This document shows positions 8,104-20,060 of a stretch of 20,060 bases of DNA, in pieces (within the stretch, counting starts at the first letter, position 1; each line of letters opens with the position of its first letter). The notes under the pieces are model-generated. The model was given only the letters and a program-made list of their open reading frames with translations. It was not told the DNA's origin and did not search any database. The translations under genes were made by a program, and so were the position numbers. Source of the stretch: a virus; the IMG/VR virus record IMGVR_UViG_3300029319_009117, positions 1-20,060 of that record; one strand, given 5' to 3'.

Positions 8104-9192
8104 CTATTCAAATGCGACGTTTGGATCGTCGTCCTCCTCGTTAATATATACATAATTATCAACGTCAAACTCTTCAGATCCTATTTGAAATTCAGTGGTT
8201 TTGGTATAATCATACGGCCGTATTACAGTATCTGGTATGCGCTCTGGGTTTAGCCAGCCAGGATCTTCTGCGTCAAATGTACTCGGTAAATGATCACCAT
8301 CAGGACCAATCCAGGTATTTGTTTTAGAGCCACCATATTCAGTTGTAGTTGCACCTTCCTCACTTGTTTTTGTAGCAGGCTTTACTTCTTGACCTTGTTG
8401 ATCTGGGTGGCTACGACCGGGAAGTTTAAACACAGAGTATGCCGGTACCAAACTTCGGCTATCTACTCCGGTAATATGTTGCTCGGGCACAAATTGAAAC
8501 ATTCCTGTGCCCGGTGGCACTGCCCAGGCTGGCGGTGTTGTGCCAGGATAAGTTCCACGGTACTCCCAGTGCCAACGTTCGTGCATTACTGTTCTTACAA
8601 AACCATATTTCCAAGCGTTTTTACAAAGCCAAGCGTATTGTCCTCTTCCTTTGGTTGTGACATCAACGGCAATACCAATTTGATGGTTGGACGTACCAGG
8701 GGGGGCAGCAACACCAGGCCCCTTCCGATCATAGAGATATTTTTGATATTCTGGAGTTCTAAAGCCAGAATTTAGGCCAATGTTCACGCCATCTTTTTTT
8801 GCTCCATGCACCATGGCATCAAAATAATATGCTATTATGCTCGGAAGAATAATATCGAAACCTGATCGACCGACTCCATATTTTTTCCAACTGGTGCCAA
8901 CGCCAAGGGGCTGCCCTTTTCTGCCATCTTTTTTGCCGTAGATGGTATATACAGTTGTTATTTCTCCAAACGAACCATACTCATTAAAATCCACTGTACC
9001 CGGTGGTAGAATTCTGATGTCTTCCGTAAGATATGGAACCTGCGCGGTGGATATTGAAAATTGAACACCTATGGGTTTGCCTTCGCCTCCGCGACCCTCA
9101 TCACTTACACTACAGTTGGTCGGCTCGGGCGTATCCCCGGTGGCACCATTTTCTGCTTCCGGTGGTGTATTTAAACTTGGTAATTGTGACAT
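8104..9192 (-). CDS. VanY-type M15 peptidoglycan peptidase, probable tail-associated lysin
   Basis: Zinc D-Ala-D-Ala carboxypeptidase / L,D-endopeptidase fold of the M15 (VanY) family, which cuts the peptide stems of peptidoglycan. The catalytic domain covers about residues 110-215. SGFRTPEYQ (142-150) is the usual entry motif. SNHQIGIAVD (168-177) is the SxHxxGxAxD site with zinc ligands H170 and D177. ERWHWE (205-210) supplies the catalytic E205 and third ligand H208. All key residues are present. It has a Pro/Thr/Gly-rich N-terminus (1-40) and an acidic C-terminal extension of about 140 residues, unlike a free endolysin. No signal peptide. Its position among baseplate genes suggests it replaces the gp5 lysozyme at the tail tip. 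A GGAGGAGGAGG site precedes the ATG. The stretch near 8521-8580 is strikingly GC-rich (36 of 60 bases) against its surroundings. Confidence 0.88.
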   Translation of the reverse strand: MSQLPSLNTPPEAENGATGDTPEPTNCSVSDEGRGGEGKPIGVQFSISTAQVPYLTEDIRILPPGTVDFNEYGSFGEITTVYTIYGKKDGRKGQPLGVGTSWKKYGVGRSGFDIILPSIIAYYFDAMVHGAKKDGVNIGLNSGFRTPEYQKYLYDRKGPGVAAPPGTSNHQIGIAVDVTTKGRGQYAWLCKNAWKYGFVRTVMHERWHWEYRGTYPGTTPPAWAVPPGTGMFQFVPEQHITGVDSRSLVPAYSVFKLPGRSHPDQQGQEVKPATKTSEEGATTTEYGGSKTNTWIGPDGDHLPSTFDAEDPGWLNPERIPDTVIRPYDYTKTTEFQIGSEEFDVDNYVYINEEDDDPNVAFE

Positions 9193-10285: not shown

Positions 10286-10975
10286 TTATATTTTACCGTT
10301 AACCCAATTTTTCTTAAAAATACGATATTTTATGCGTAATTTATTTAAGTTATTTACAATTTGTTTTGTATTAAGTCCGGTAAGTTCTCGCAGATAAAGA
10401 TAGATCGCTTTCTTGTTATATATCATCGTATCTTCATCAATTGAATCAAGTAAAACTTTAATGGCTTCTAAAACTTTTTTTTCGTTTTCTTTTAAGTTGC
10501 CAGTATCCCATGATTCTATTTCGCCCCACAAGGATTGCCAAAATTCATATTCTTCTCTTTCTTCATGATATTTATTTGTGGTGATAATAAGTTCATTGTC
10601 AACCTCTTTTGGCATCTCATCATAAAGAACCTCGGTTCTGGCTCTCTTTGCATTCTTTTTTACTTTGTGGATAAACCAGTTTTTCGTTATTACACTAAAA
10701 TATGAAAATGCTTTAGAGCCCTTGCTTGGATCATACTTGTCGAGGATTGTTGTCAGCCAAACTTTGCACTCGTCTTTGAGAGCATCAATATTTGGTAGGG
10801 TGGTAAATTTATAAGTATATACAATTTTATCCACCATTTCATCAAAGGCTGGACCTATCCAATCTATGTATAATTGAGTTCTTATTTTTTGATCATCGGT
10901 TGCAACATAATCAATAATTGCATTCTCGTGATCCTTGGTAAAGTAGTGTTTACCTGCTTTCCGCTTTCTCGGCAT
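10286..10975 (-). CDS. Late-transcription sigma factor, T4 gp55-like
   Basis: Sigma-like subunit that binds host RNA polymerase core and directs it to late promoters. The region-2-like core is visible at about residues 45-107: a helical segment (DEMVDKIVYTYKF), DECKVWLTTILDKYDPSKG and then KAFSYFSVITKNWFIHKVKK (residues 88-107), the sigma-70 region 2 pattern in which a Phe/Tyr-rich helix is followed by basic residues. The long C-terminal helical part (130-225) has no canonical region 4 that I can identify, as expected of gp55. At 229 aa it is slightly longer than T4 gp55 (about 185). The N-terminus is basic (PRKRKAGKH). ATG 10975 follows the upstream stop by two bases. Its presence implies that structural genes here are late genes. 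Confidence 0.8.
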   Translation of the reverse strand: MPRKRKAGKHYFTKDHENAIIDYVATDDQKIRTQLYIDWIGPAFDEMVDKIVYTYKFTTLPNIDALKDECKVWLTTILDKYDPSKGSKAFSYFSVITKNWFIHKVKKNAKRARTEVLYDEMPKEVDNELIITTNKYHEEREEYEFWQSLWGEIESWDTGNLKENEKKVLEAIKVLLDSIDEDTMIYNKKAIYLYLRELTGLNTKQIVNNLNKLRIKYRIFKKNWVNGKI

Positions 10976-11787: not shown

Positions 11788-12147
11788 TTAATCTCCTTTT
11801 TGTATTCTATAACTGTCACTATCAAAGTGTTGAGTTGAAAACTCAAATAATTCTGTGTCTTGTAGGGCAATCATTTGATGTCGTAATCCACGATATACAT
11901 GAAAGTTATCACCCTTTTCTAATATTAATTCTTTTGCGTTGTTAATATCATCCTCATCGGAATATTTCACTAACATCTTGCCTGATTGAATATAAAAGAC
12001 CTCATCTTTTAATTTGTGATAATGCCATGAACATCTCTTACCCTTAACAAAGTAAAGTAACTTGCCACAGTATTCATCACAGTTTACAATCCATTTTTCA
12101 AATCCCCATCCTTTAGGGACATAGTTCATTGTTAAAGAATTCTTCAT
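11788..12147 (-). CDS. Cupin-fold protein, sugar-phosphate isomerase/epimerase-like
   Basis: 119 aa, a single cupin domain. Motif 1 is GKRCSWHYHKLKDEVFYIQSG (residues 36-56), fitting G(X)5HXH(X)4E(X)6G with H42, H44, E49. Motif 2 is GDNFHVYRGLRH (79-90), with H90 the fourth metal ligand. Small cupins of this type occur with sugar genes and resemble the mannose-6-phosphate isomerase cupin domain of ManC-like proteins. The substrate is unknown. ATG 12147 is preceded by AAGGAG at spacing six and lies inside the HAD gene (35 bp overlap); a downstream Met7 lacks such a site. It could act as an isomerase or epimerase in the sugar pathway, or be a carbohydrate-binding regulator. Confidence 0.72.
   Translation of the reverse strand: MKNSLTMNYVPKGWGFEKWIVNCDEYCGKLLYFVKGKRCSWHYHKLKDEVFYIQSGKMLVKYSDEDDINNAKELILEKGDNFHVYRGLRHQMIALQDTELFEFSTQHFDSDSYRIQKGD
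11792..11799 (-). promoter_or_regulatory. Ribosome binding site selecting the 75-aa start
   Basis: AAAGGAGA on the minus strand, five bases before ATG 11786. It argues against the longer reading frame that starts at 11870. Confidence 0.75.
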
Positions 12148-12442
12148 CCCTAACTCCTTTATCGTCTATATAATAATCACCTGCTGGTTTTCCTAGAAAC
12201 AATTGGTGATACTCAACTCCCCAATCTGCAAGTTGTTGCTTTGTTAATTCATAAAATTCTTCAATTGCTTTTTGTGCATTATTTTCATGTCTTCCCATAC
12301 CTCTTGCAGTATGTAAAACAATTTTATTGTTTTTTGCTAAGATATTAACTAGTTCTATTCTATCATATAAAGGCTGCGCTTTCAAATAATCGCCGTTTGT
12401 ATTTGTACAAAGTGTACCATCGATGTCAAAAACATAAGTCAT
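12113..12442 (-). CDS. Small HAD phosphatase of sugar loci
   Basis: 109 aa, no cap domain. All four HAD motifs are visible: FDIDGTL with nucleophile D6 and acid/base D8 (motif I), HTARG with T45 (II), K85 (III) and YIDDKG with D93/D94 (IV). These short HADs are common in capsule and LPS loci. Next to heptose-kinase and adenylyltransferase homologues it could supply the phosphatase step (1,7-bisphosphate to 1-phosphate, GmhB role), but it does not look like GmhB itself, so this is inference. It starts four bases inside the adenylyltransferase gene (ATGA overlap at 12442). Substrate undetermined. Confidence 0.75.
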   Translation of the reverse strand: MTYVFDIDGTLCTNTNGDYLKAQPLYDRIELVNILAKNNKIVLHTARGMGRHENNAQKAIEEFYELTKQQLADWGVEYHQLFLGKPAGDYYIDDKGVRDEEFFNNELCP

Positions 12443-12834
12443 TTCATTTTATCCAAAATATTAGTGGTGGAGTAGCCGTTAATAAAATTAAAAATTCTAA
12501 CCTCACAGATATCACTACCCACTACCTTAGATGGCATATAATCTCCCCCTTTAACAATAATATCTGGTTTCAGTTTAGAAATAAGATCATATGGTGTCTC
12601 CTCGTTAAAAATATGTACTTCATCAACACAACTTAAGTTTTCCAATAGAATTTTTCTATCTTGCTGATTAAAATATGGTCTTTGATCGCCCTTAAGTTTT
12701 TTAACACTATCATCGCTATTTAAGCCAACAATAACACGACTACCAATTTCTCTGCAATATCTCAACAATTCAACATGACCTCTGTGAACAATATCAAAAC
12801 AGCCATTAGTAAACACTATCTTGCCCAACGACAC
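12439..12834 (-). CDS. Heptose-1-phosphate adenylyltransferase-like (HldE C-terminal domain)
   Basis: 131 aa cytidylyltransferase-fold protein matching the nucleotidylyltransferase domain of bacterial HldE. GKIVFTNGCFDIVHRGHVEL (residues 4-23) holds the HxGH site at H17-R-G-H20; KLKGDQRP at 46-53, VKGGDY at 94-99 and the C-terminal GYSTTNI at 120-126 are HldE-type motifs. The expected reaction is ADP transfer from ATP to heptose 1-phosphate, giving ADP-heptose, but another 1-phosphate is possible. Translation begins at GTG 12834, with AGAGGAG three to four bases upstream inside the kinase gene, so the 29-bp overlap is intentional rather than a frameshift. The natural HldE is a fusion; here the two halves are separate. 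Confidence 0.85.
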   Translation of the reverse strand: MSLGKIVFTNGCFDIVHRGHVELLRYCREIGSRVIVGLNSDDSVKKLKGDQRPYFNQQDRKILLENLSCVDEVHIFNEETPYDLISKLKPDIIVKGGDYMPSKVVGSDICEVRIFNFINGYSTTNILDKMK

Positions 12835-13564
12835 TTACTCCTCTTTTTTGCACTACAATAGTAGCACACTCATTTGCAAATTGAATTGACTGAACGATGT
12901 CTTTTGTTTGTAAATATTTAACAGTAAATCCTGCTATAAATGTATCGCCAGCACCTGCAACATCTTTTACTTCAGTCTTTACAACTGGGAAGACATGCTC
13001 TTTATACATACATCCTTTTGAGCCTAATGTAACAATTAATTTATCTCTAATATTTTTATTAGCAAACGCATAATTTTCACTTTTTAAATATTCAGAATTG
13101 TTAATTTTAATAAACTCAACGTTGTTGCAATAATCACCTAATACTTTTTTAGTATCTAAAAATACTAAATCATGATTTTCAGATATGTAATAGATGTCTT
13201 CTTCAGTTAAAAAACCTTTATTGTAATCAGATATTACAACACCATCATATTGATCAAATTTAATTTTTCTCAAATTAGTAGTGTGTGATATTTTATGGTC
13301 ATTTTGATCAACTCTTAAAAACATATGATTTGTCCTATGATCAATAAATCTAGTTTTTTCTACAATTCTCCAATTAGGGTTTGTATGAATACCAACTTCA
13401 ACACCTAAAGATTTAATATTGTTTCTAACATTCATAGCCATTCCTTCAACAATAATGTTTTCAAAACTATTAAATACAGGGACTGGTGCTTCGGGCGTTA
13501 ATCGATTTGCTTCACCATAGGTAAAATTATCAATACAACTTTCTCCGATAACTAGAACCTTCAT
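12806..13564 (-). CDS. Heptose-7-phosphate kinase-like (HldE N-terminal, PfkB family)
   Basis: 252 aa ribokinase-fold protein. RLTPEAPVPVF (21-31) is the hallmark of the HldE/RfaE kinase domain, VISDYNKG (110-117) is its ATP-side motif, and GAGDTFIAGF (204-213) gives the PfkB anion hole with catalytic D207. It is shorter than the usual ~310-residue domain; comparison by eye shows the loss between about residues 60 and 70, where the segment carrying a GLTG-type motif is missing. The glycine-rich GGAANV motif reads EGMAMNV (40-46). The expected role is phosphorylation of D-glycero-D-manno-heptose 7-phosphate at C1. Overlaps ColD-like by four bases (ATGA) and the adenylyltransferase by 29 bp, in another frame. 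Confidence 0.82.
   Translation of the reverse strand: MKVLVIGESCIDNFTYGEANRLTPEAPVPVFNSFENIIVEGMAMNVRNNIKSLGVEVGIHTNPNWRIVEKTRFIDHRTNHMFLRVDQNDHKISHTTNLRKIKFDQYDGVVISDYNKGFLTEEDIYYISENHDLVFLDTKKVLGDYCNNVEFIKINNSEYLKSENYAFANKNIRDKLIVTLGSKGCMYKEHVFPVVKTEVKDVAGAGDTFIAGFTVKYLQTKDIVQSIQFANECATIVVQKRGVSVVGQDSVY
12838..12844 (-). promoter_or_regulatory. Ribosome binding site of the adenylyltransferase within the kinase gene
   Basis: AGAGGAG on the minus strand, three bases before GTG 12834. Its presence inside the end of the kinase gene shows independent initiation of the second domain, rather than a sequencing frameshift of a fused HldE. Confidence 0.7.
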
Positions 13565-14727
13565 ACTTCGTCCTTGATCACCTTACAGATAAAATCAATT
13601 TCTTCTTCAGTTAATTCGGGATAGTTTGGAACAAAAAAGCCTCGGGAATGAATTTTATCGCTTTGTTCGTCTTCAAATTCATCATATAGATCAATCCAGA
13701 AAGGATGTCTACCCAAATTTCCTGCACTATAAATTCTTGTCTCAATTCCATTGTTAACCAATCGGGTAACAATTTCTTTTCTATGTTCAGTGCTTTCGGC
13801 TAATGCGCCAAAGGATATTGAAACTGGAAAATCATCGCCCCAATCTTGAAATTCAACATACCCTGTTAACTTTTCTGCGTATAGTTGATGATTTTTATTT
13901 CGATTGTTTGAAGCCCAAGCGGCTTTTTTAACTTGTCTAATTCCTAAAAATGCTTGCAAATCAGTGGATCTAAGATTATAGCCTGGGATAAAAAAAGTGA
14001 AAGGACTGTGAAAATCTTCAATTCCATAATCTTGCATCATTTGATTATATGTTTCTTTATCTAAATCTTTTGCCCACCCATGACTACGCAACATAAGAAG
14101 CATATCATATAACTTCTTATCATTTACATTAACCATGCCACCCTCAATTGTAGAGAGTTGGTGTCCAAAATAGAAAGAAAACGAGGACATGTCTCCAACT
14201 GTGCCAACCATGGTGCCATCGCTATATCTTGCGCCAAGCGCAGCACAGGCATCTTCAAGTAAGACAAAACCATACTTTTCTTTTAGTTTTAAAAGCCTGT
14301 CTTTATGATGAGGTACGCCCAAAACTTGTACAAAGATTACTGCATCAGGTCTTTCTTTTTCACAAATCTCTTCAAGTTGATCCAAATCCATACCAAAAGT
14401 GTCAGGTGCTGCACCGCACATTATGGGTTCGAGCCCTAATTGAATTGCGGGCGAAATTGTCGTAACCCAGCCAACTGACGGTACAACTATTTTTTTGTTT
14501 GGAATTAGACCACATTGGACGGCTGCTGCAACCATTAGTAAGTTTGCAGATGAACCTGAGTTATTAAAAACAGCATATTCGGTTCCAATATATTCTGACC
14601 AATCCTTTTCTACTTGCAGAGTAAGTTCACCTTTTGTGAGTCTGGGGTAACTCTTTAACCAATCACACAAAGCATTAACATCTTCATCATTAATTGTTTC
14701 TTTTGCTAATGGGTATTTTATTTCCAT
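13561..14727 (-). CDS. ColD-like PLP sugar 3-dehydratase (DegT/DnrJ/EryC1 family, Lys replaced by His)
   Basis: 388 aa, full-length aspartate aminotransferase-fold protein of the DegT sugar family. D159 (LLEDACAALGA, 157-167) is the usual PLP-ring aspartate. Where sugar aminotransferases carry the PLP-binding Lys, SFSFYFGHQLSTIEGG (182-197) has His at 189. That swap is the hallmark of 3-dehydratases such as ColD (GDP-4-keto-6-deoxymannose 3-dehydratase) and E1, which use PLP as a cofactor and release the 3-hydroxyl instead of transferring an amino group. RSHGWAKD also matches. Start ATG 14727 has GGAGAA upstream; the stop overlaps the kinase start (ATGA). Likely product: a 4-keto-3,6-dideoxy or related 3-deoxy nucleotide sugar; which one is unknown, and the 4-keto precursor enzyme is not visible here. 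Confidence 0.85.
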   Translation of the reverse strand: MEIKYPLAKETINDEDVNALCDWLKSYPRLTKGELTLQVEKDWSEYIGTEYAVFNNSGSSANLLMVAAAVQCGLIPNKKIVVPSVGWVTTISPAIQLGLEPIMCGAAPDTFGMDLDQLEEICEKERPDAVIFVQVLGVPHHKDRLLKLKEKYGFVLLEDACAALGARYSDGTMVGTVGDMSSFSFYFGHQLSTIEGGMVNVNDKKLYDMLLMLRSHGWAKDLDKETYNQMMQDYGIEDFHSPFTFFIPGYNLRSTDLQAFLGIRQVKKAAWASNNRNKNHQLYAEKLTGYVEFQDWGDDFPVSISFGALAESTEHRKEIVTRLVNNGIETRIYSAGNLGRHPFWIDLYDEFEDEQSDKIHSRGFFVPNYPELTEEEIDFICKVIKDEV

Positions 14728-14728
14728 T

Positions 14729-15421
14729 TTATTCTCCTATTTTAACATTTAAATTGTAATTAAGTTTTTCTCTAACTGAATCACATAATAGTTCATAAAC
14801 TTTCTTATCATGATCGTCGTGTTTTGTGATACTGTTATGGGGAAGCGCTGTAATTCTAACGTCTATATCTTCTTTTAAGGGTTTGCCAATAACATAGCAA
14901 AATGTTCCAAGCCAATTATCAACCCAGTGATGTTTAAACGATTGATTAAAAATTACCCCACCTAAATATTTTTCAACAGTTTGTCTATAAAAACATGGCC
15001 ATCGTATTATTCTAGGTCTGTCATCATAGTGACTTAAATTAATTTTTTTTGCAACCCATTCTGGTACCTCACAGTATGCCAATGGTGCGCTTCTATCAAC
15101 AGGGGAGGTTATAATAAAGTCATTCCCCTTTTTTAGACTTGATTTCATTTTATTTACAAGAGTGCCAATATTATTTGGTGGTAATATAACATTATTTAAG
15201 CAAATTATAAACTTACCTTTTGATTTTTTATATAAATAATTAAAACTAGAGACACTCGTACCTTGGTCTTCAAAAAAACGAAAATTAGACAAATTTTCAA
15301 AATTTATTAATTTATCAGAACACACCAAAATTTCATATGAAAAATCTAAATTTTGATTAATAATATTGTTTACTTGTCTATCGTAGTCTCCAAGAGCAAC
15401 TATTAAAAAAGATACATCCAT
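14729..15421 (-). CDS. GT-A-like glycosyltransferase family protein
   Basis: 230 aa. Residues 3-35 (VSFLIVALGDYDRQVNNII then EILVCSD) resemble the opening beta-strand/helix of family-2 glycosyltransferases. KKSKGKFIICLNNVILPP (65-82) matches the end of the GT2 nucleotide-binding half, but the expected DxD metal motif reads NNV, so metal dependence or activity is uncertain. The C-terminal half (HHWVDNWLGTFCYVIG, 164-179) may be the acceptor side. It may transfer the island's sugar. It lies two bases from the ColD-like start and two bases after the oxygenase stop at 15424. Function by fold only. Confidence 0.55.
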   Translation of the reverse strand: MDVSFLIVALGDYDRQVNNIINQNLDFSYEILVCSDKLINFENLSNFRFFEDQGTSVSSFNYLYKKSKGKFIICLNNVILPPNNIGTLVNKMKSSLKKGNDFIITSPVDRSAPLAYCEVPEWVAKKINLSHYDDRPRIIRWPCFYRQTVEKYLGGVIFNQSFKHHWVDNWLGTFCYVIGKPLKEDIDVRITALPHNSITKHDDHDKKVYELLCDSVREKLNYNLNVKIGE

Positions 15422-15423
15422 AA

Positions 15424-16374
15424 TTATATTTTTTCAACTATTTTTATTGGCGCTCTCTGATAATTATCAGAGTTGGCTTGTGAGTATTGATGTTTTGCTT
15501 GTTCAAGTGTTTCTTCAACGGACACAAATAGATCATCTCCAAGTCTTGAGTACATTTCTGTATCAAAATATTCATATCGATAATCCTCTAAATTAACTTT
15601 TTTTCTTTTATGCGACTCATAATACAGGGAGTTTTTATTGTTCATAATAATTCCAAAATCAAAAGACACTCTAATGTTTCCATTTTTCAAACTGGTTCTA
15701 TGAAGACAGGCATGATCAAAAATACTAATATATCCCATTCTTGCATATCCGAGAAACTTTTTATCTTTAAATTTTTTCAGCCCTTCATCATAATTTAATA
15801 ATGGAGAGAAAAAGTCATCAGTGACATTTTGCGGCTCGTAAAACTCAAGAGTTGTGGCTGGATCTCCGAGGAGAGGCACACCCAATATTGCATCGCCTAT
15901 ATGTGATGCCCAGGAATCAGAATGTAGTTTTGTTGTTGCCAAAGGGCGTGTGTGATCCAATTCGGTGTTTTTACCACACATAATTCTAACGGTACATGGC
16001 TGTACAGCAAGGCAGTGTTTTAATATACCAAGTTCCTTAAGAGTGTTAACAATGTTTTTTTGAAGTTTATTATATTCTGTAATGTTTTCCTTTTTAGGGT
16101 GAAACGCTCCGTTTGGTGTCCTGTTGGGTAAACTTAATATCTTCTTTTCGTAATTTAGTAAAAAGTGTTTATCAATTACAAATTGATCATTTTTATATGT
16201 TTCTTGCAATGTTTTTGCAATATAATTAATAACACAATGCTCTAATTTAGTTAAAAGGTTATCATATATTTTAAAATCAAGATAGATTCCGTGATCACGT
16301 TCAACGTTTGGATTATTTCTTATTATATCATAAAGTTCCGCTCTTTTTTGTATAATTGGCTCTTTTATTGACAT
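15424..16374 (-). CDS. Fe(II)/2-oxoglutarate-dependent oxygenase-like protein
   Basis: 316 aa. The metal facial triad is readable: H151-S-D153 (TKLHSDSW, 148-155) and H225 (HACLHRT, 221-227), followed exactly ten residues later by R235 (RVSF), the canonical oxoglutarate-binding Arg. The spacing and the beta-strand pattern after it (RVSFDFGIIM) fit the double-stranded beta-helix oxygenases. The likely chemistry is hydroxylation or desaturation with oxoglutarate and O2; the substrate is unknown. Its location between an epimerase and glycosyltransferases suggests a sugar or sugar nucleotide, though a virion protein or a nucleic acid is possible. The ATG at 16374 overlaps the epimerase end by 10 bp, with GGAGG at spacing seven. 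Confidence 0.7.
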   Translation of the reverse strand: MSIKEPIIQKRAELYDIIRNNPNVERDHGIYLDFKIYDNLLTKLEHCVINYIAKTLQETYKNDQFVIDKHFLLNYEKKILSLPNRTPNGAFHPKKENITEYNKLQKNIVNTLKELGILKHCLAVQPCTVRIMCGKNTELDHTRPLATTKLHSDSWASHIGDAILGVPLLGDPATTLEFYEPQNVTDDFFSPLLNYDEGLKKFKDKKFLGYARMGYISIFDHACLHRTSLKNGNIRVSFDFGIIMNNKNSLYYESHKRKKVNLEDYRYEYFDTEMYSRLGDDLFVSVEETLEQAKHQYSQANSDNYQRAPIKIVEKI

Positions 16375-16898
16375 TTTAATGCCTCCACTAAGTTTTTTGC
16401 TTTAGCATCTCTATCAGATAAGATCGGCTCTTGAATTGGCCAATTAATCTTTAAGTCATCATCATTCCATTTAACTGTAATTTGATCTTCAGGGTTACTA
16501 TATTTTTTAGACCATTTATAAAAAAATATACATTTTTCACTAATACATAAATGACCATTAAGGCACCCAGCAGGAACTAAAATCATTTTAGGTTGTTCTT
16601 GAGATAACTTAAACGTAACACTTTTTTTATATTGAGGTGAATCTTTTCTCATATCCGCGACTGCTAAAAATAGTTCCCCATGTAAGCATGTGATCAACTT
16701 GTCTGTTTTAAAATCACCGTGTAATCCACGCAACACCCCTTTATTAGAGATAGTGACTTTATCTTCAACAAAATTAGGAAACAAATCACATTCTTCATAT
16801 ATGGACCATATCTCTCCCCTTGTGTCATAAAAAGGATCAAGATGAATTTCCAACAATCCATCAATTGAGTGTTTAACTATGTTTTTTATGTATTTCAT
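16365..16898 (-). CDS. RmlC-like sugar-nucleotide 3,5-epimerase family protein
   Basis: 177 aa, normal length for RmlC. Signatures in order: DTRGEIWSIYEE (25-36), VTISNKGVLRGLH (48-60, with catalytic His60 of the RGLH motif), LHGELFLAVADMRKDSP (72-88), the YKW....Y pair (Y127, Y133), and NWPIQEPILSDRD (152-164), which is the family's IxWP...lSxkD tail. The usual AHGF is LNGH (113-116). The family epimerises C3 and/or C5 of 4-keto-6-deoxy nucleotide sugars, which fits upstream dehydratase chemistry. Its start overlaps the preceding glycosyltransferase stop by four bases (ATGA). Substrate not determinable. Confidence 0.85.
   Translation of the reverse strand: MKYIKNIVKHSIDGLLEIHLDPFYDTRGEIWSIYEECDLFPNFVEDKVTISNKGVLRGLHGDFKTDKLITCLHGELFLAVADMRKDSPQYKKSVTFKLSQEQPKMILVPAGCLNGHLCISEKCIFFYKWSKKYSNPEDQITVKWNDDDLKINWPIQEPILSDRDAKAKNLVEALKCQ
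16382..16386 (-). promoter_or_regulatory. Ribosome binding site of the oxygenase gene, inside the epimerase gene
   Basis: GGAGG on the minus strand, seven bases before ATG 16374, within the last codons of the epimerase. Supports the 10-bp overlap. Confidence 0.6.
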
Positions 16899-17842
16899 GG
16901 TAGGAATTTATATTTTATCTTATCATAATCTAGTTCATCGTCAGTAAGAAAAAAGTATTGGTTTACTTTTTCAAGCAACTTATCAGGATTTTTAACAAAT
17001 CCTTCTTCATCATATGCATCTGGATTGTGATTCATAATATTATTACATTCCTCATATCCAACTCCCACTTCGTATGCTTCTTTGTCGTTTATAAATTCAG
17101 ATGCATCTCTGCCATAAAGTAAATTATTCCATGAATTACCATGATTGCGGGATGTGGCAGAAAATCCAGATGAGGCACCATCAATACTTCGATGGTGATT
17201 TACTTGTTTGTCAGCCATTATAACCCACCTCTGGCTAGAAGCCGCTGCAATATAATTAAAAACAGATTCTGAACAATAGGCGGCAAAAACGTCTGGTTCT
17301 ATTTTATCATTACAGTTCTTATATATTTTATGGCTAAAAAGATGAACATGTTGATTAATTGATTTACCAATTGGGATAACATAATGATCACCTTTAATTT
17401 GTATTTCATCTGTACTGTGTTTAAACTTTGGATCTAAAACATCTAATGCCTCGTCATTATCGACTTGAACTGCTACAATACCGTGTTGTCCAGACTTAAG
17501 GCAATCGTATGTCTTTTGAATAATATCCTTGTCTTCAAACCAGCAGCCTGAATCAACATACATATATGATTCAAAATCTCCAAATTCTTCTACACTCTTT
17601 CTTACAGCATTATTAAAAGTTATGTTTACTGTGTGTAATTCTGGGGTTAAACAATATGAAATTCTATTACCAAATGTTGAAATAAGTTTTTTGATACACT
17701 CTGGACTGTTTTTACAGGAGGATAATACTATTTTAAAGCCTTCAAAATCTTGTTCTAAAAAACTGTTAATACACTTAACATAGTGCTCAGTATTGTCTCC
17801 TCTAATACCACAGGTATTATAAACTAATAAAACTTTATTCAT
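16895..17842 (-). CDS. Glycosyltransferase-like protein, copy 1 of a tandem pair
   Basis: 315 aa. N-terminus NKVLLVYNTCGIRGDNTEHY is a GT-A-like beginning (strand, then a nucleotide-contact loop), with YMYVDSGC (93-100) in place of the DxD and an HHRSIDGASSGF stretch (about 216-227) later. DVFAAYCSESVFNYIAA is shared with its neighbour. It is a paralogue of the gene at 17852-18829: residues 41-78 differ at only three of 38 positions. The start ATG 17842 lies nine bases after that gene's stop. The acceptor and donor are unknown; the pair could give two linkages of the island's sugar. No signal peptide or membrane segment. Confidence 0.6.
   Translation of the reverse strand: MNKVLLVYNTCGIRGDNTEHYVKCINSFLEQDFEGFKIVLSSCKNSPECIKKLISTFGNRISYCLTPELHTVNITFNNAVRKSVEEFGDFESYMYVDSGCWFEDKDIIQKTYDCLKSGQHGIVAVQVDNDEALDVLDPKFKHSTDEIQIKGDHYVIPIGKSINQHVHLFSHKIYKNCNDKIEPDVFAAYCSESVFNYIAAASSQRWVIMADKQVNHHRSIDGASSGFSATSRNHGNSWNNLLYGRDASEFINDKEAYEVGVGYEECNNIMNHNPDAYDEEGFVKNPDKLLEKVNQYFFLTDDELDYDKIKYKFLP
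17609..17722 (-). repeat. Highly conserved block shared by the two tandem glycosyltransferases (copy 1)
   Basis: This 114-bp segment pairs with 18590-18703 without gaps; by hand count about 97 of 114 bases match, and 35 of 38 encoded residues. Conservation well above the rest of the pair suggests recent duplication, gene conversion or strong constraint on one active-site region. Confidence 0.75.
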
Positions 17843-17851
17843 TTTAACTTC

Positions 17852-18829
17852 TCACGGGATAAATTTGCATTTAATATTTTTATAATCCAACTCTTCTTCA
17901 GAAAGAAACAGATATTTATCAATAACACTTTTTAATCTACTTGGGTCTTTGCATTTTCCTGATTTATCGTATGCATCAGGGTTATGCATCATGATATTAC
18001 TACACTCTTCATATCCAAGTCCTGAAGCCACTGCTTCTTTGTCATTCATAAAATCCAAAGCATTGCGATCAAAAAGAAAATTGTTCCAATGATTGTCATG
18101 TACAATATTTCCATTTTGATCTTCAGAACTTACTCTATGACGAAAACCGCTAGATGGTCCGTCAACGGCTTTAAGGTGACGAATTTGTCTATCAGCCATT
18201 ATAGCCCATCTAAGACCAACAGAGGCAGCAATATAATTTAAAACAGATTCTGAGCAGAATGCTGCAAATACGTCAGGGTATAACTTCTTATACGCCTTAA
18301 AAATTTTGTTGCTAAACATTGCAGTATGCTGATTTACTGAAACACCAATGGGTATCACTAGATTATCCCCCGTTACTTGAATGTTGTTTGTTTCGTATAC
18401 ATACGGTGGTCCCAAGTTTTCTAAACACTCGTCAGTATCAGTTTGTACAACAACAATCCCATAATCACTGTCAGTCATAGTTTTATGTGCTAAACTAAAA
18501 ATATCAGTTTGTTCATCCATTGTACACCCAGAATCAATATACATATATGTTTCAAACTCCCCATAGTGGTCAACACATCTCTGAACTGTGTTATTGAAAG
18601 TTATATTTACTGTGTGTAATTCTGGTGTAAGACAATAGGAAATTTTGTTTCCAAATGTAGAGAAAAGTTTTTTAATACACTCTGGGCTGTTTCTACATGA
18701 GGATAGTGCAACACGAAGCCCCTGTATATCTTGTTTTAGCAGTGAATCAATGCTTTCTATATACCAATCAGTGTTGTTAGATTGAATACCACATGTGTTA
18801 TAGACAGCCAAAAGTTTTCTATCATTCAT
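17852..18829 (-). CDS. Glycosyltransferase-like protein, copy 2 of a tandem pair
   Basis: 325 aa from ATG 18829; a longer frame has a TTG four codons upstream, but ATG aligns with the start of its paralogue (NxxxLL.VYNTCGI) and lies in an eight-base overlap with the SDR-type gene, so ATG is preferred. GT-A-like N-terminal strand, YMYIDSGC metal-site-like motif near residue 98, and DVFAAFCSESVLNYIAA. It has an insertion compared with its paralogue around DQNGNIVHDNHWNN. No obvious ribosome site (only GGAAAAAATT). The two copies match closely in one block and diverge elsewhere. Substrate unknown. Confidence 0.6.
   Translation of the reverse strand: MNDRKLLAVYNTCGIQSNNTDWYIESIDSLLKQDIQGLRVALSSCRNSPECIKKLFSTFGNKISYCLTPELHTVNITFNNTVQRCVDHYGEFETYMYIDSGCTMDEQTDIFSLAHKTMTDSDYGIVVVQTDTDECLENLGPPYVYETNNIQVTGDNLVIPIGVSVNQHTAMFSNKIFKAYKKLYPDVFAAFCSESVLNYIAASVGLRWAIMADRQIRHLKAVDGPSSGFRHRVSSEDQNGNIVHDNHWNNFLFDRNALDFMNDKEAVASGLGYEECSNIMMHNPDAYDKSGKCKDPSRLKSVIDKYLFLSEEELDYKNIKCKFIP
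18590..18703 (-). repeat. Highly conserved block shared by the two tandem glycosyltransferases (copy 2)
   Basis: Partner of 17609-17722. Encodes residues 43-80 of this copy, including SPECIKKL and CLTPELHTVNITFNN, with K/R, F/I and K/R as the only residue changes. Confidence 0.75.
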
Positions 18830-19334
18830 AATTTTTTCCAAATAATATTAATTGTTGTACATTTTTTGCAGAAATTTTTTCTCCATTAATATGGTAATTT
18901 TTTATTGTTTCATTTGCCATCGCTTTTTGTAATATTATATCTGTTGCATCATCAACAGACATCAATTCCATAATACCATAGGGCTGCATGTTTTCATTTC
19001 TAAAAGACGCGCAAACGCCTTTGCCAATTAAAGATGGCAATCTTATTACAACATTACTTTTATTTTCTAATAACAAATGTGATTCCGCAAGATGTTTATA
19101 ATATGTATACCAATTGTCTCTTTGAGAGGAGGTTGAAATAAATACAATTTTTTTATCTTTGTTTTGGTTAACAAAATAGATAAACCTTTTATATTCTTTT
19201 TTTTGTGCCTCCTTGGATTTATCATCAATGTTCCAAGTATGATAGATATATATGTCATCATCAATGTTAATATTACAAATCTTTTTCTTTAAAACGTTCC
19301 CTATTTGACCTCTTCCGTTAATTAATTTTATCAT
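18822..19334 (-). CDS. Short SDR-type sugar-nucleotide reductase/epimerase-like protein
   Basis: 170 aa. NGRGQIG (6-12) fits the GxGxxG dinucleotide loop (G7, G9, G12). STSS at 67-70 provides the catalytic Ser/Thr and YTYYK gives Y76-xxx-K80, the SDR YxxxK. VIRLPSLIGKG (96-106) is the usual extended-SDR follow-on (RLPxxyGp). The length is only a little more than half that of typical RmlD/WcaG enzymes (about 300), with an early N-terminal segment and much of the substrate domain missing or reduced. A role as 4-keto reductase in the pathway is likely but not proven. Its start overlaps the radical SAM stop by four bases (ATGA) and its stop overlaps the next gene. Confidence 0.68.
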   Translation of the reverse strand: MIKLINGRGQIGNVLKKKICNINIDDDIYIYHTWNIDDKSKEAQKKEYKRFIYFVNQNKDKKIVFISTSSQRDNWYTYYKHLAESHLLLENKSNVVIRLPSLIGKGVCASFRNENMQPYGIMELMSVDDATDIILQKAMANETIKNYHINGEKISAKNVQQLILFGKNYE

Positions 19335-20060
19335 ATAAAGTCCGGGTGTTTAATAACTTTTCTAATTTTTTCTTGTTCTTTATATAGTTCTTCTTTTGTT
19401 ATTTTTTTCTCTTTGATATCTTGATGGATTTTCCACATTGCTTTGTTACTTTCATGAGGTTTACACAGTTTGGTGCAATTCTTAAAACATTCTTTGTTTT
19501 CAATTTGATCCATAACTTGTTGCCTTTTATTAAGATCTTTCCAGATATCTGCAAAACTTTGTTCGTATAAATTGCCGTAACTATATTGTTTCCAGCCTCT
19601 GTGATTTGTACAAACATACACATGTCCATCTGCGCCAATACAAGGGGAAAGTTGGGATCCTAAACACATTTTATAATTTCTACCGAATTTGTCACGATCC
19701 ATAGCAAGATCTTCAAATTTATACCCGTTAACTTGAAATTTATGTCCCAATATTTGTTCTGCTTCCTCTAAAAGTGGATTGACCTTTTGTGTCCAAAACT
19801 CTAAATCTCTCTGTTCACCGCCAACCTCTCTAATAACTATTTCGGGTTTGTATTGGCAATATGCGACATCATAATCTTTAAAAAAATTAGCAAAATTAAC
19901 AATCTCCTGATACGTGTCTGGAGATATAACGTAGCCAACACCAATATCGATTTTGTTACCGTGTTGTTTATTAGTGTCTATCAATCTTGATAGATTGGAA
20001 ACCATTTTATCCCAATCTTGTCTACCACGGGCTTTACGAATGTCATTATAACTTTCTTTA
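19331..20060 (-). CDS. Radical SAM protein with SPASM-like C-terminus (5' end outside window)
   Basis: Only the C-terminal ~242 codons are seen; the frame is open to the right edge, so the CxxxCxxC radical SAM cluster lies outside. Numbering from the Met at 20005: C114, then SPCIGADGHVYVC (120-132) with C122 and C132, and CFKNCTKLC (173-181) with C173, C177, C181. This is a SPASM-type auxiliary-cluster arrangement (GADGxVxxC then spaced Cys); GNLYEQSFADIWKDL (144-158) is also typical. The family includes peptide-modifying enzymes and sugar-acting dehydrogenases; co-location favours sugar chemistry by inference. Its stop overlaps the SDR-type start. Confidence 0.78.
   Translation of the reverse strand, partial: KESYNDIRKARGRQDWDKMVSNLSRLIDTNKQHGNKIDIGVGYVISPDTYQEIVNFANFFKDYDVAYCQYKPEIVIREVGGEQRDLEFWTQKVNPLLEEAEQILGHKFQVNGYKFEDLAMDRDKFGRNYKMCLGSQLSPCIGADGHVYVCTNHRGWKQYSYGNLYEQSFADIWKDLNKRQQVMDQIENKECFKNCTKLCKPHESNKAMWKIHQDIKEKKITKEELYKEQEKIRKVIKHPDFI

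Follow-up and report, generated by a model that had tools for sequence, protein, structure and literature searches.

Methylphosphonate, which releases methane when it is broken down, is a main suspect for the methane found in oxygenated seawater; the organisms known to make it are cellular (archaea, SAR11 and others). The cellular loci, for instance those of Nitrosopumilus maritimus, Pelagibacterales and the alphaproteobacteria G326 and G769, encode methylphosphonate synthase (MPnS), a fusion of a cytidylyltransferase with phosphoenolpyruvate (PEP) mutase (PepM), phosphonopyruvate decarboxylase (Ppd) and an Fe-alcohol dehydrogenase (Fe-ADH), and adjoin genes for LicD-type transferases and glycosyltransferases (PMC9381506); phosphonoglycans have been proposed to protect cells against phage (PMC8931226). 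Among viruses, lipopolysaccharide (LPS) genes are located within the host-recognition clusters of T4-like phages (PMC7029224). The locus analyzed here lies in a window of 20,060 bases (bases 1-20060 of the 36,726-base IMG/VR virus record IMGVR_UViG_3300029319_009117; coordinates further along the record continue the window numbering) and resembles the pelagimyophage and cyanomyophage cluster: both are extensive and variable, lie close to tail genes and include glycosyltransferases and rfaE-type genes among their sugar genes. It differs in that phosphonate genes are not mentioned in PMC7029224 and in that the gp23 of a sister virus places the present virus in another, distant T4 group. Sugar islands next to tail genes are already known, and the present one is a well-conserved example; the most unusual part of its gene run is a methylphosphonate pathway, which lies outside the window and was therefore missed by the first-pass annotation, an earlier reading of the window from its sequence alone.

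The first-pass annotation described a continuous run of 12 genes packed with overlaps, and indeed 12 mostly overlapping minus-strand open reading frames (ORFs) occupy positions 11788-20060. The island is larger than that description: the window ends at a 12-base scaffold gap within a radical SAM gene, which is collinear across the gap with its relatives, and the run continues in the record (11788-36484). At 22 of its 27 gene junctions the neighbors overlap or are separated by no more than 4 bases, and the largest gap measures 55 bases. The phosphonate cassette (record 26767-31629) has MPnS, cytidylyltransferase::PepM, Ppd and Fe-ADH in the same order as G326 and G769. The identities of PepM and MPnS are well supported by sequence comparison. 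The cytidylyltransferase::PEP mutase fusion (28349-29653) scores 385.9 bits against TIGR02320, above the cut-off of 319.55, and has the EDK...KxNS motif and invariant catalytic residues. The predicted MPnS (29643-31034) matches the solved Nitrosopumilus MPnS (PDB 6b9s) over residues 10-462 with an E-value of 7e-76, compared with 3.5e-52 for the dioxygenase HEPD (PDB 6b9r). In three viral proteins, His161, Gln165 and His203, along with the HFMHQ and YITP segments, are those of the Nitrosopumilus MPnS, whereas HEPD has HLLYQ and WGLP; the residues that mark MPnS as opposed to HEPD were reportedly defined by Born et al. in 2017. In a small tree with HEPD as the outgroup, the phage MPnS is placed among cellular MPnS. 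Ppd, unlike in the cellular loci, is split into two short genes (C-terminal half, 27503-27979; N-terminal half, 27960-28349), whose products match the corresponding parts of TIGR03297, with 117.8 bits on model positions 2-123 (N part) and 99 bits on positions 170-288 (C part), the cut-off for the whole protein being 312.5. The Fe-ADH (26767-27549) is compact, with 260 amino acids (aa) compared with 365-371 aa in cells; its best family, TIGR03405, is matched with 56.7 bits against a cut-off of 423.7, and the D-H-H-H metal ligands are kept in the compact viral copies that were aligned. The LicD protein (30985-31629) scores 33 bits against PF04991, with a gathering cut-off of 22.6.

As predicted, the enzymes of the cassette cover every step between PEP and methylphosphonate activated with cytidine monophosphate (CMP), and a candidate transferase is encoded with them. 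PepM would convert PEP to phosphonopyruvate, the split Ppd (27503-28349) would yield phosphonoacetaldehyde, the Fe-ADH would convert the latter to 2-hydroxyethylphosphonate, and MPnS would produce methylphosphonate, to be activated to CMP-methylphosphonate by the cytidylyltransferase domain fused to PepM. LicD might then transfer the methylphosphonate to a glycan built by several glycosyltransferases of the island. The presence of the PepM-fused cytidylyltransferase and LicD beside MPnS makes these activation and transfer steps plausible, in line with the published view of cellular loci, which pair phosphonate genes with LicD-type transferases and glycosyltransferases (PMC9381506; PMC8931226).

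Two further IMG/VR viruses, IMGVR_UViG_3300009593_004315 (hereafter G1) and IMGVR_UViG_3300030107_006534 (G2), carry the cassette, which is located at three different places of the shared gene order in the three viruses and is partial in G2. The island enzymes are 42-87% identical at the protein level among the three; synonymous differences are near saturation and nonsynonymous differences are far lower throughout, as expected for genes under selection. A DNA pattern on IMGVR_UViG_3300021197_001403, taken for a fourth viral MPnS, proved to be a chance match, with no island gene on that contig.

A PepM profile search identified 32 further viral contigs, 25 of which encode the two Ppd halves (PpdN and PpdC) and a compact ADH alongside PepM, although some contigs in this set are near-copies of one another and their viral identity mostly follows the IMG/VR classification, with gp23 present on two. 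No MPnS was found within 10 kb of these 25 four-gene operons. The window's virus, G1 and G2 group as one clade (100/100) in the PepM tree, placed with other viral sequences and separately from the MPnS-bearing alphaproteobacteria G326 and G769; this topology fits, without proving it, the possibility that MPnS joined an older viral 2-hydroxyethylphosphonate operon. Our scan of genome contigs for MPnS returned only one HEPD-like Rhizobium gene, the alphaproteobacterial MPnS coming from individually drawn genomes. A search of 50,697 GenBank phage records turned up no MPnS, and no precedent for viral or phage phosphonate biosynthesis was found in the open-access literature searched, a scope outside which most subscription journals fall. 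Vibrio phage Va2 has a gene annotated as phosphoenolpyruvate mutase that shares the PEP mutase superfamily and the EDK...KxNS motif; however, it is 26% identical, lacks the cytidylyltransferase domain and has no ADH or MPnS annotated alongside. As far as the literature searched shows, phage-encoded methylphosphonate synthesis appears to be new: the biochemistry is established, but this kind of carrier is not. A cytidylyltransferase::PEP mutase with about 51-53% identity to that of the record is also encoded on two human faecal scaffolds (L134 and L135), unverified and labeled 'Bacteriophage sp.'. In many viral operons a protein of 270-410 aa is encoded beside PepM (L098, L101, L116 and L117) and is a candidate phosphonate transferase; a Pfam search for a transferase among genes adjoining the other viral PepM gave a single sub-threshold sulfatase match.

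The part of the island within the window that adjoins the tail genes is a sugar module of five minus-strand genes (11788-14727), comprising a cupin (11788-12147; PF07883, E-value 1e-8; phrog_7851, 9e-60; 76-81% identical in G2 and G1), a HAD-type phosphatase (12113-12442), a nucleotidylyltransferase resembling the HldE C-domain (12439-12834; TIGR02199, 163.8 bits with a cut-off of 181.5), a short PfkB kinase resembling the HldE N-domain (12806-13564; TIGR02198, E-value 1e-38, 133.2 bits with a cut-off of 345; phrog_8133 over nearly the full length) and a 3-dehydratase dependent on pyridoxal phosphate (PLP) of the DegT family (13561-14727). The dehydratase matches ColD (PDB 2gms) over its full length with an E-value of 3e-54, and His189, which replaces the usual PLP-binding lysine of transaminases, aligns with the catalytic histidine of ColD and is invariant in the three viruses. 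These results bear out the cupin and ColD-like calls of the first-pass annotation. Its assignment of the kinase and nucleotidylyltransferase as an HldE pair holds insofar as TIGR02198 and TIGR02199 are the best matches, but with both scores below the curated cut-offs the two proteins are best described as HldE-like. Similarly, the phosphatase it called is HAD-type, EcbF/BcbF-like and a candidate heptose bisphosphate phosphatase, but its TIGR01689 score (43 bits) is below the cut-off. The phosphatase belongs to phrog_1238, a family labeled phosphoheptose isomerase, perhaps incorrectly, given that this member resembles a HAD phosphatase.

The heptose cassette of Prochlorococcus phage P-TIM68 likewise has a kinase, an HldC-like nucleotidylyltransferase and a cupin ('cysteine dioxygenase') in one run, along with a gene annotated as phosphoheptose isomerase; it differs in that the region examined contains no annotated ColD-like or phosphonate gene. 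The ColD and RfbH dehydratases of O-antigen loci share with the phage enzyme the full-length match and the catalytic histidine, but are linked to GDP-mannose genes rather than to HldE-like heptose genes. A search of IMG/VR with the ColD-like protein identified 31 viral loci. Excluding G1 and G2, 25 of the 29 contigs hold ColD, kinase, nucleotidylyltransferase, HAD phosphatase and cupin together with the sigma factor gene, and in 19 of these 25 the five core enzymes are in the same unbroken order, with widely varying genes upstream of ColD. Because the five enzymes and sigma recur and the upstream genes differ, we consider the sugar set a conserved core and the rest cargo. The central claim of the first-pass annotation, that the virus carries an island for sugar modification in which HldE-like and ColD-like enzymes are encoded next to tail genes, is thereby supported, the block being kept in at least 25 further viral contigs.

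Based on these observations, we propose, with a probability of roughly 0.6, that the phage makes an unusual glycan derived from heptose and capped by methylphosphonate, which it probably places on the envelope of its host as a defense against superinfection. Which genes are present, how they are ordered, their catalytic residues and their conservation are read directly from sequence, whereas substrates and products, the acceptor, the envelope location and the benefit are inferred. The most likely product of the core module, which adjoins the sigma and baseplate genes, is an activated sugar of the 3-deoxy heptose type, and the exchangeable cargo upstream of it would in this virus include the methylphosphonate pathway. 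The envelope of the infected cell would probably be rewritten, blocking superinfection or receptor re-binding; the host envelope is favored as the acceptor by analogy with T4-like marine phages whose host-recognition region contains clusters of LPS genes (PMC7029224). The run leads straight into sigma and baseplate genes, which is compatible with late co-expression with virion genes, so that the same glycan might instead be attached to tail or capsid proteins, aiding adsorption or shielding the particle. We regard this as unlikely, considering that cellular methylphosphonate loci and LPS genes of T4-like phages are discussed as envelope-glycan systems (PMC8931226, PMC9381506, PMC7029224) and that no virion-specific feature was found. 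That the pathway merely diverts phosphorus or carbon into 2-hydroxyethylphosphonate or methylphosphonate as auxiliary metabolism, with no glycan involved, is suggested by PanB and an acetolactate-synthase-like enzyme within the same run; it appears quite improbable because in all three viruses the cassette sits amid glycosyltransferases, LicD and sugar enzymes, and the cytidylyltransferase domain of PepM points to transfer. Only slightly less improbable is that methylphosphonate is not made at all, either because the MPnS-like enzyme is a HEPD-type dioxygenase or because the phage pathway ends with 2-hydroxyethylphosphonate: HEPD is a homolog of MPnS that uses the same substrate, and the 25 operons described above have PepM, both Ppd halves and ADH with no MPnS nearby, yet the E-value, the triad and the neighboring residues all favor MPnS.

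Several observations weigh against the proposed envelope glycan. The record is a fragment assembled from a metagenome and contains two gaps of 12 N each; neither HldE-like protein reaches its curated cut-off; and the isomerase for sedoheptulose 7-phosphate, a missing step to be sought in the continuation of the record, was not found there. That step is possibly supplied by the host. The other enzyme that the first-pass annotation expected in the continuation, a 4,6-dehydratase, has a candidate in an SDR protein (25788-26711); among NCBIfam families it matches dTDP-glucose 4,6-dehydratase best, with a score well short of the cut-off. Furthermore, Ppd is missing from G2 although the contig spans nearly the whole island, and the Fe-ADH gene of G1 (G1 15119-15898) is broken by an in-frame TAA stop codon, real or a sequencing error, so that every pathway step is intact only in the window's virus. 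The large thiamine pyrophosphate (TPP) enzyme is unlikely to replace Ppd in G2, as it is also present in L040/G789, where short nucleotidylyltransferase matches only and no full PepM were found. The sister virus G789 (186 kb) has largely the same island, but in place of the methylphosphonate genes it encodes a methyltransferase of 194 aa, flanked by SDR and LicD; because LicD is present there without these genes, it may transfer something else. A 36.7-kb metagenomic scaffold with gaps could in principle be a chimeric assembly or bacterial contamination, but this is hardly credible given three separate contigs that share the island, sigma and much of the gene order, with baseplate genes and PhoH also on G1, and sister contigs of 147-186 kb that carry the core island and gp23. 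More broadly, and only tentatively, at somewhat less than even odds, marine T4-type viruses may produce surface glycans bearing methylphosphonate or, more widely, 2-hydroxyethylphosphonate, with infected cells becoming phosphonoglycan makers and a viral source of the polymer that gives off methane when later broken down in oxygenated seawater, and the phosphonate serving as a superinfection barrier. With the whole predicted pathway in one virus and the conserved four-gene operon in about two dozen viral contigs, viruses would then count among the producers of phosphonate in the sea. The idea that phosphonoglycans protect cells against phage (PMC8931226) would be reversed, in that a phage itself may install them.

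Directly downstream of the island is a gene for a gp55-like late sigma factor (10286-10975, minus strand; phrog_234, E-value 5e-6), the product of which is 61-63% identical in G1 and G2, where it occupies the same place. T4-type baseplate genes follow on the same strand, in agreement with the first-pass statement that the island reads into sigma and tail genes: a gp25-like baseplate wedge or tail lysozyme homolog (1586-1984; tblastn to annotated gp25 of T4-like phages) and a gp6-like baseplate wedge protein that runs off the record (2-1549; 43% identical to the homolog beside the G1 island). Together with gp23 in sister contigs with the core island, outside the present fragment, these homologs indicate a marine myovirus of the distant T4 type ('far T4'); the gp23 sequences nearest to that of G789 are from an uncultured phage, Flavobacterium phage immuto, Microcystis phage Mel-JY01 and RM378. 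A late-promoter scan with TATAAATA gave no excess above chance. Another protein of the tail region (8104-9192, minus strand; PF02557, E-value 4e-15; a PHROG tail family) contains a D,D-carboxypeptidase domain of the VanY/M15 type and is possibly a virion-associated wall-degrading enzyme. As to composition, the island has 32.2% G+C and the tail region 36.7%. The first-pass count of 10 G+C among the 60 bases at 19141-19200 is accurate, but its suggestion that AT-richness hints at different ancestry is not supported: third-position GC is similar in island and tail genes and the adjoining sigma region has 31.9% G+C, so composition was rejected as a sign of foreign origin.

The other island genes of the window are all on the minus strand. 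The first-pass epimerase and radical SAM calls agree with an RmlC-type sugar 3,5-epimerase (16365-16898; PF00908, E-value 2e-40; TIGR01221, 117.9 bits with a cut-off of 155.75) and a radical SAM/SPASM protein (19331-20060, continuing to record 20530; PF04055, E-value 2e-19, and PF13186 on the full protein). Two of its three glycosyltransferase-like proteins are 56% identical paralogs with a predicted GT-A fold (16895-17842 and 17852-18841); for the second, the AlphaFold model (pLDDT 69) matches TarP, PcManGT and SpsA in Foldseek (E-values of about 2e-7 to 7e-7). The third, a 230-aa protein (14729-15421) with homologs in L040 (49%) and L026 (27%), is possibly glycosyltransferase-like but had no match in Pfam and PHROG searches. 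The possible Fe(II)/2-oxoglutarate (2OG) oxygenase, a 316-aa cargo protein (15424-16374), keeps an HxD...H...RxS pattern in five viral homologs, but no Pfam, PHROG or PDB match backs the call and its AlphaFold model (pLDDT 35) is unusable. The reductase-like (RmlD-like) call for a 170-aa protein (18822-19334; 51-61% identical in G1 and G2) gained no backing from the family search, which returned no match.

Beyond the window, the run encodes a GT47-like protein (20517-21434), an acetolactate-synthase-like TPP enzyme (21431-23284), PanB (23318-24256) and a B12 radical SAM protein (24258-25781) ahead of the SDR protein, and, past LicD, an Mpo1-like protein (31631-31933) followed by an unassigned protein, a GT2 protein and two GT4 proteins, up to position 36484. 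PanB and the acetolactate-synthase-like enzyme co-occur in the window's virus, G2 and four more viruses, possibly in connection with a branched-chain sugar. The sister virus G789 also encodes an apparent GroEL-like chaperonin (L094:6445-8010) and, nearby, a long DnaE-like polymerase, both recognized by eye.

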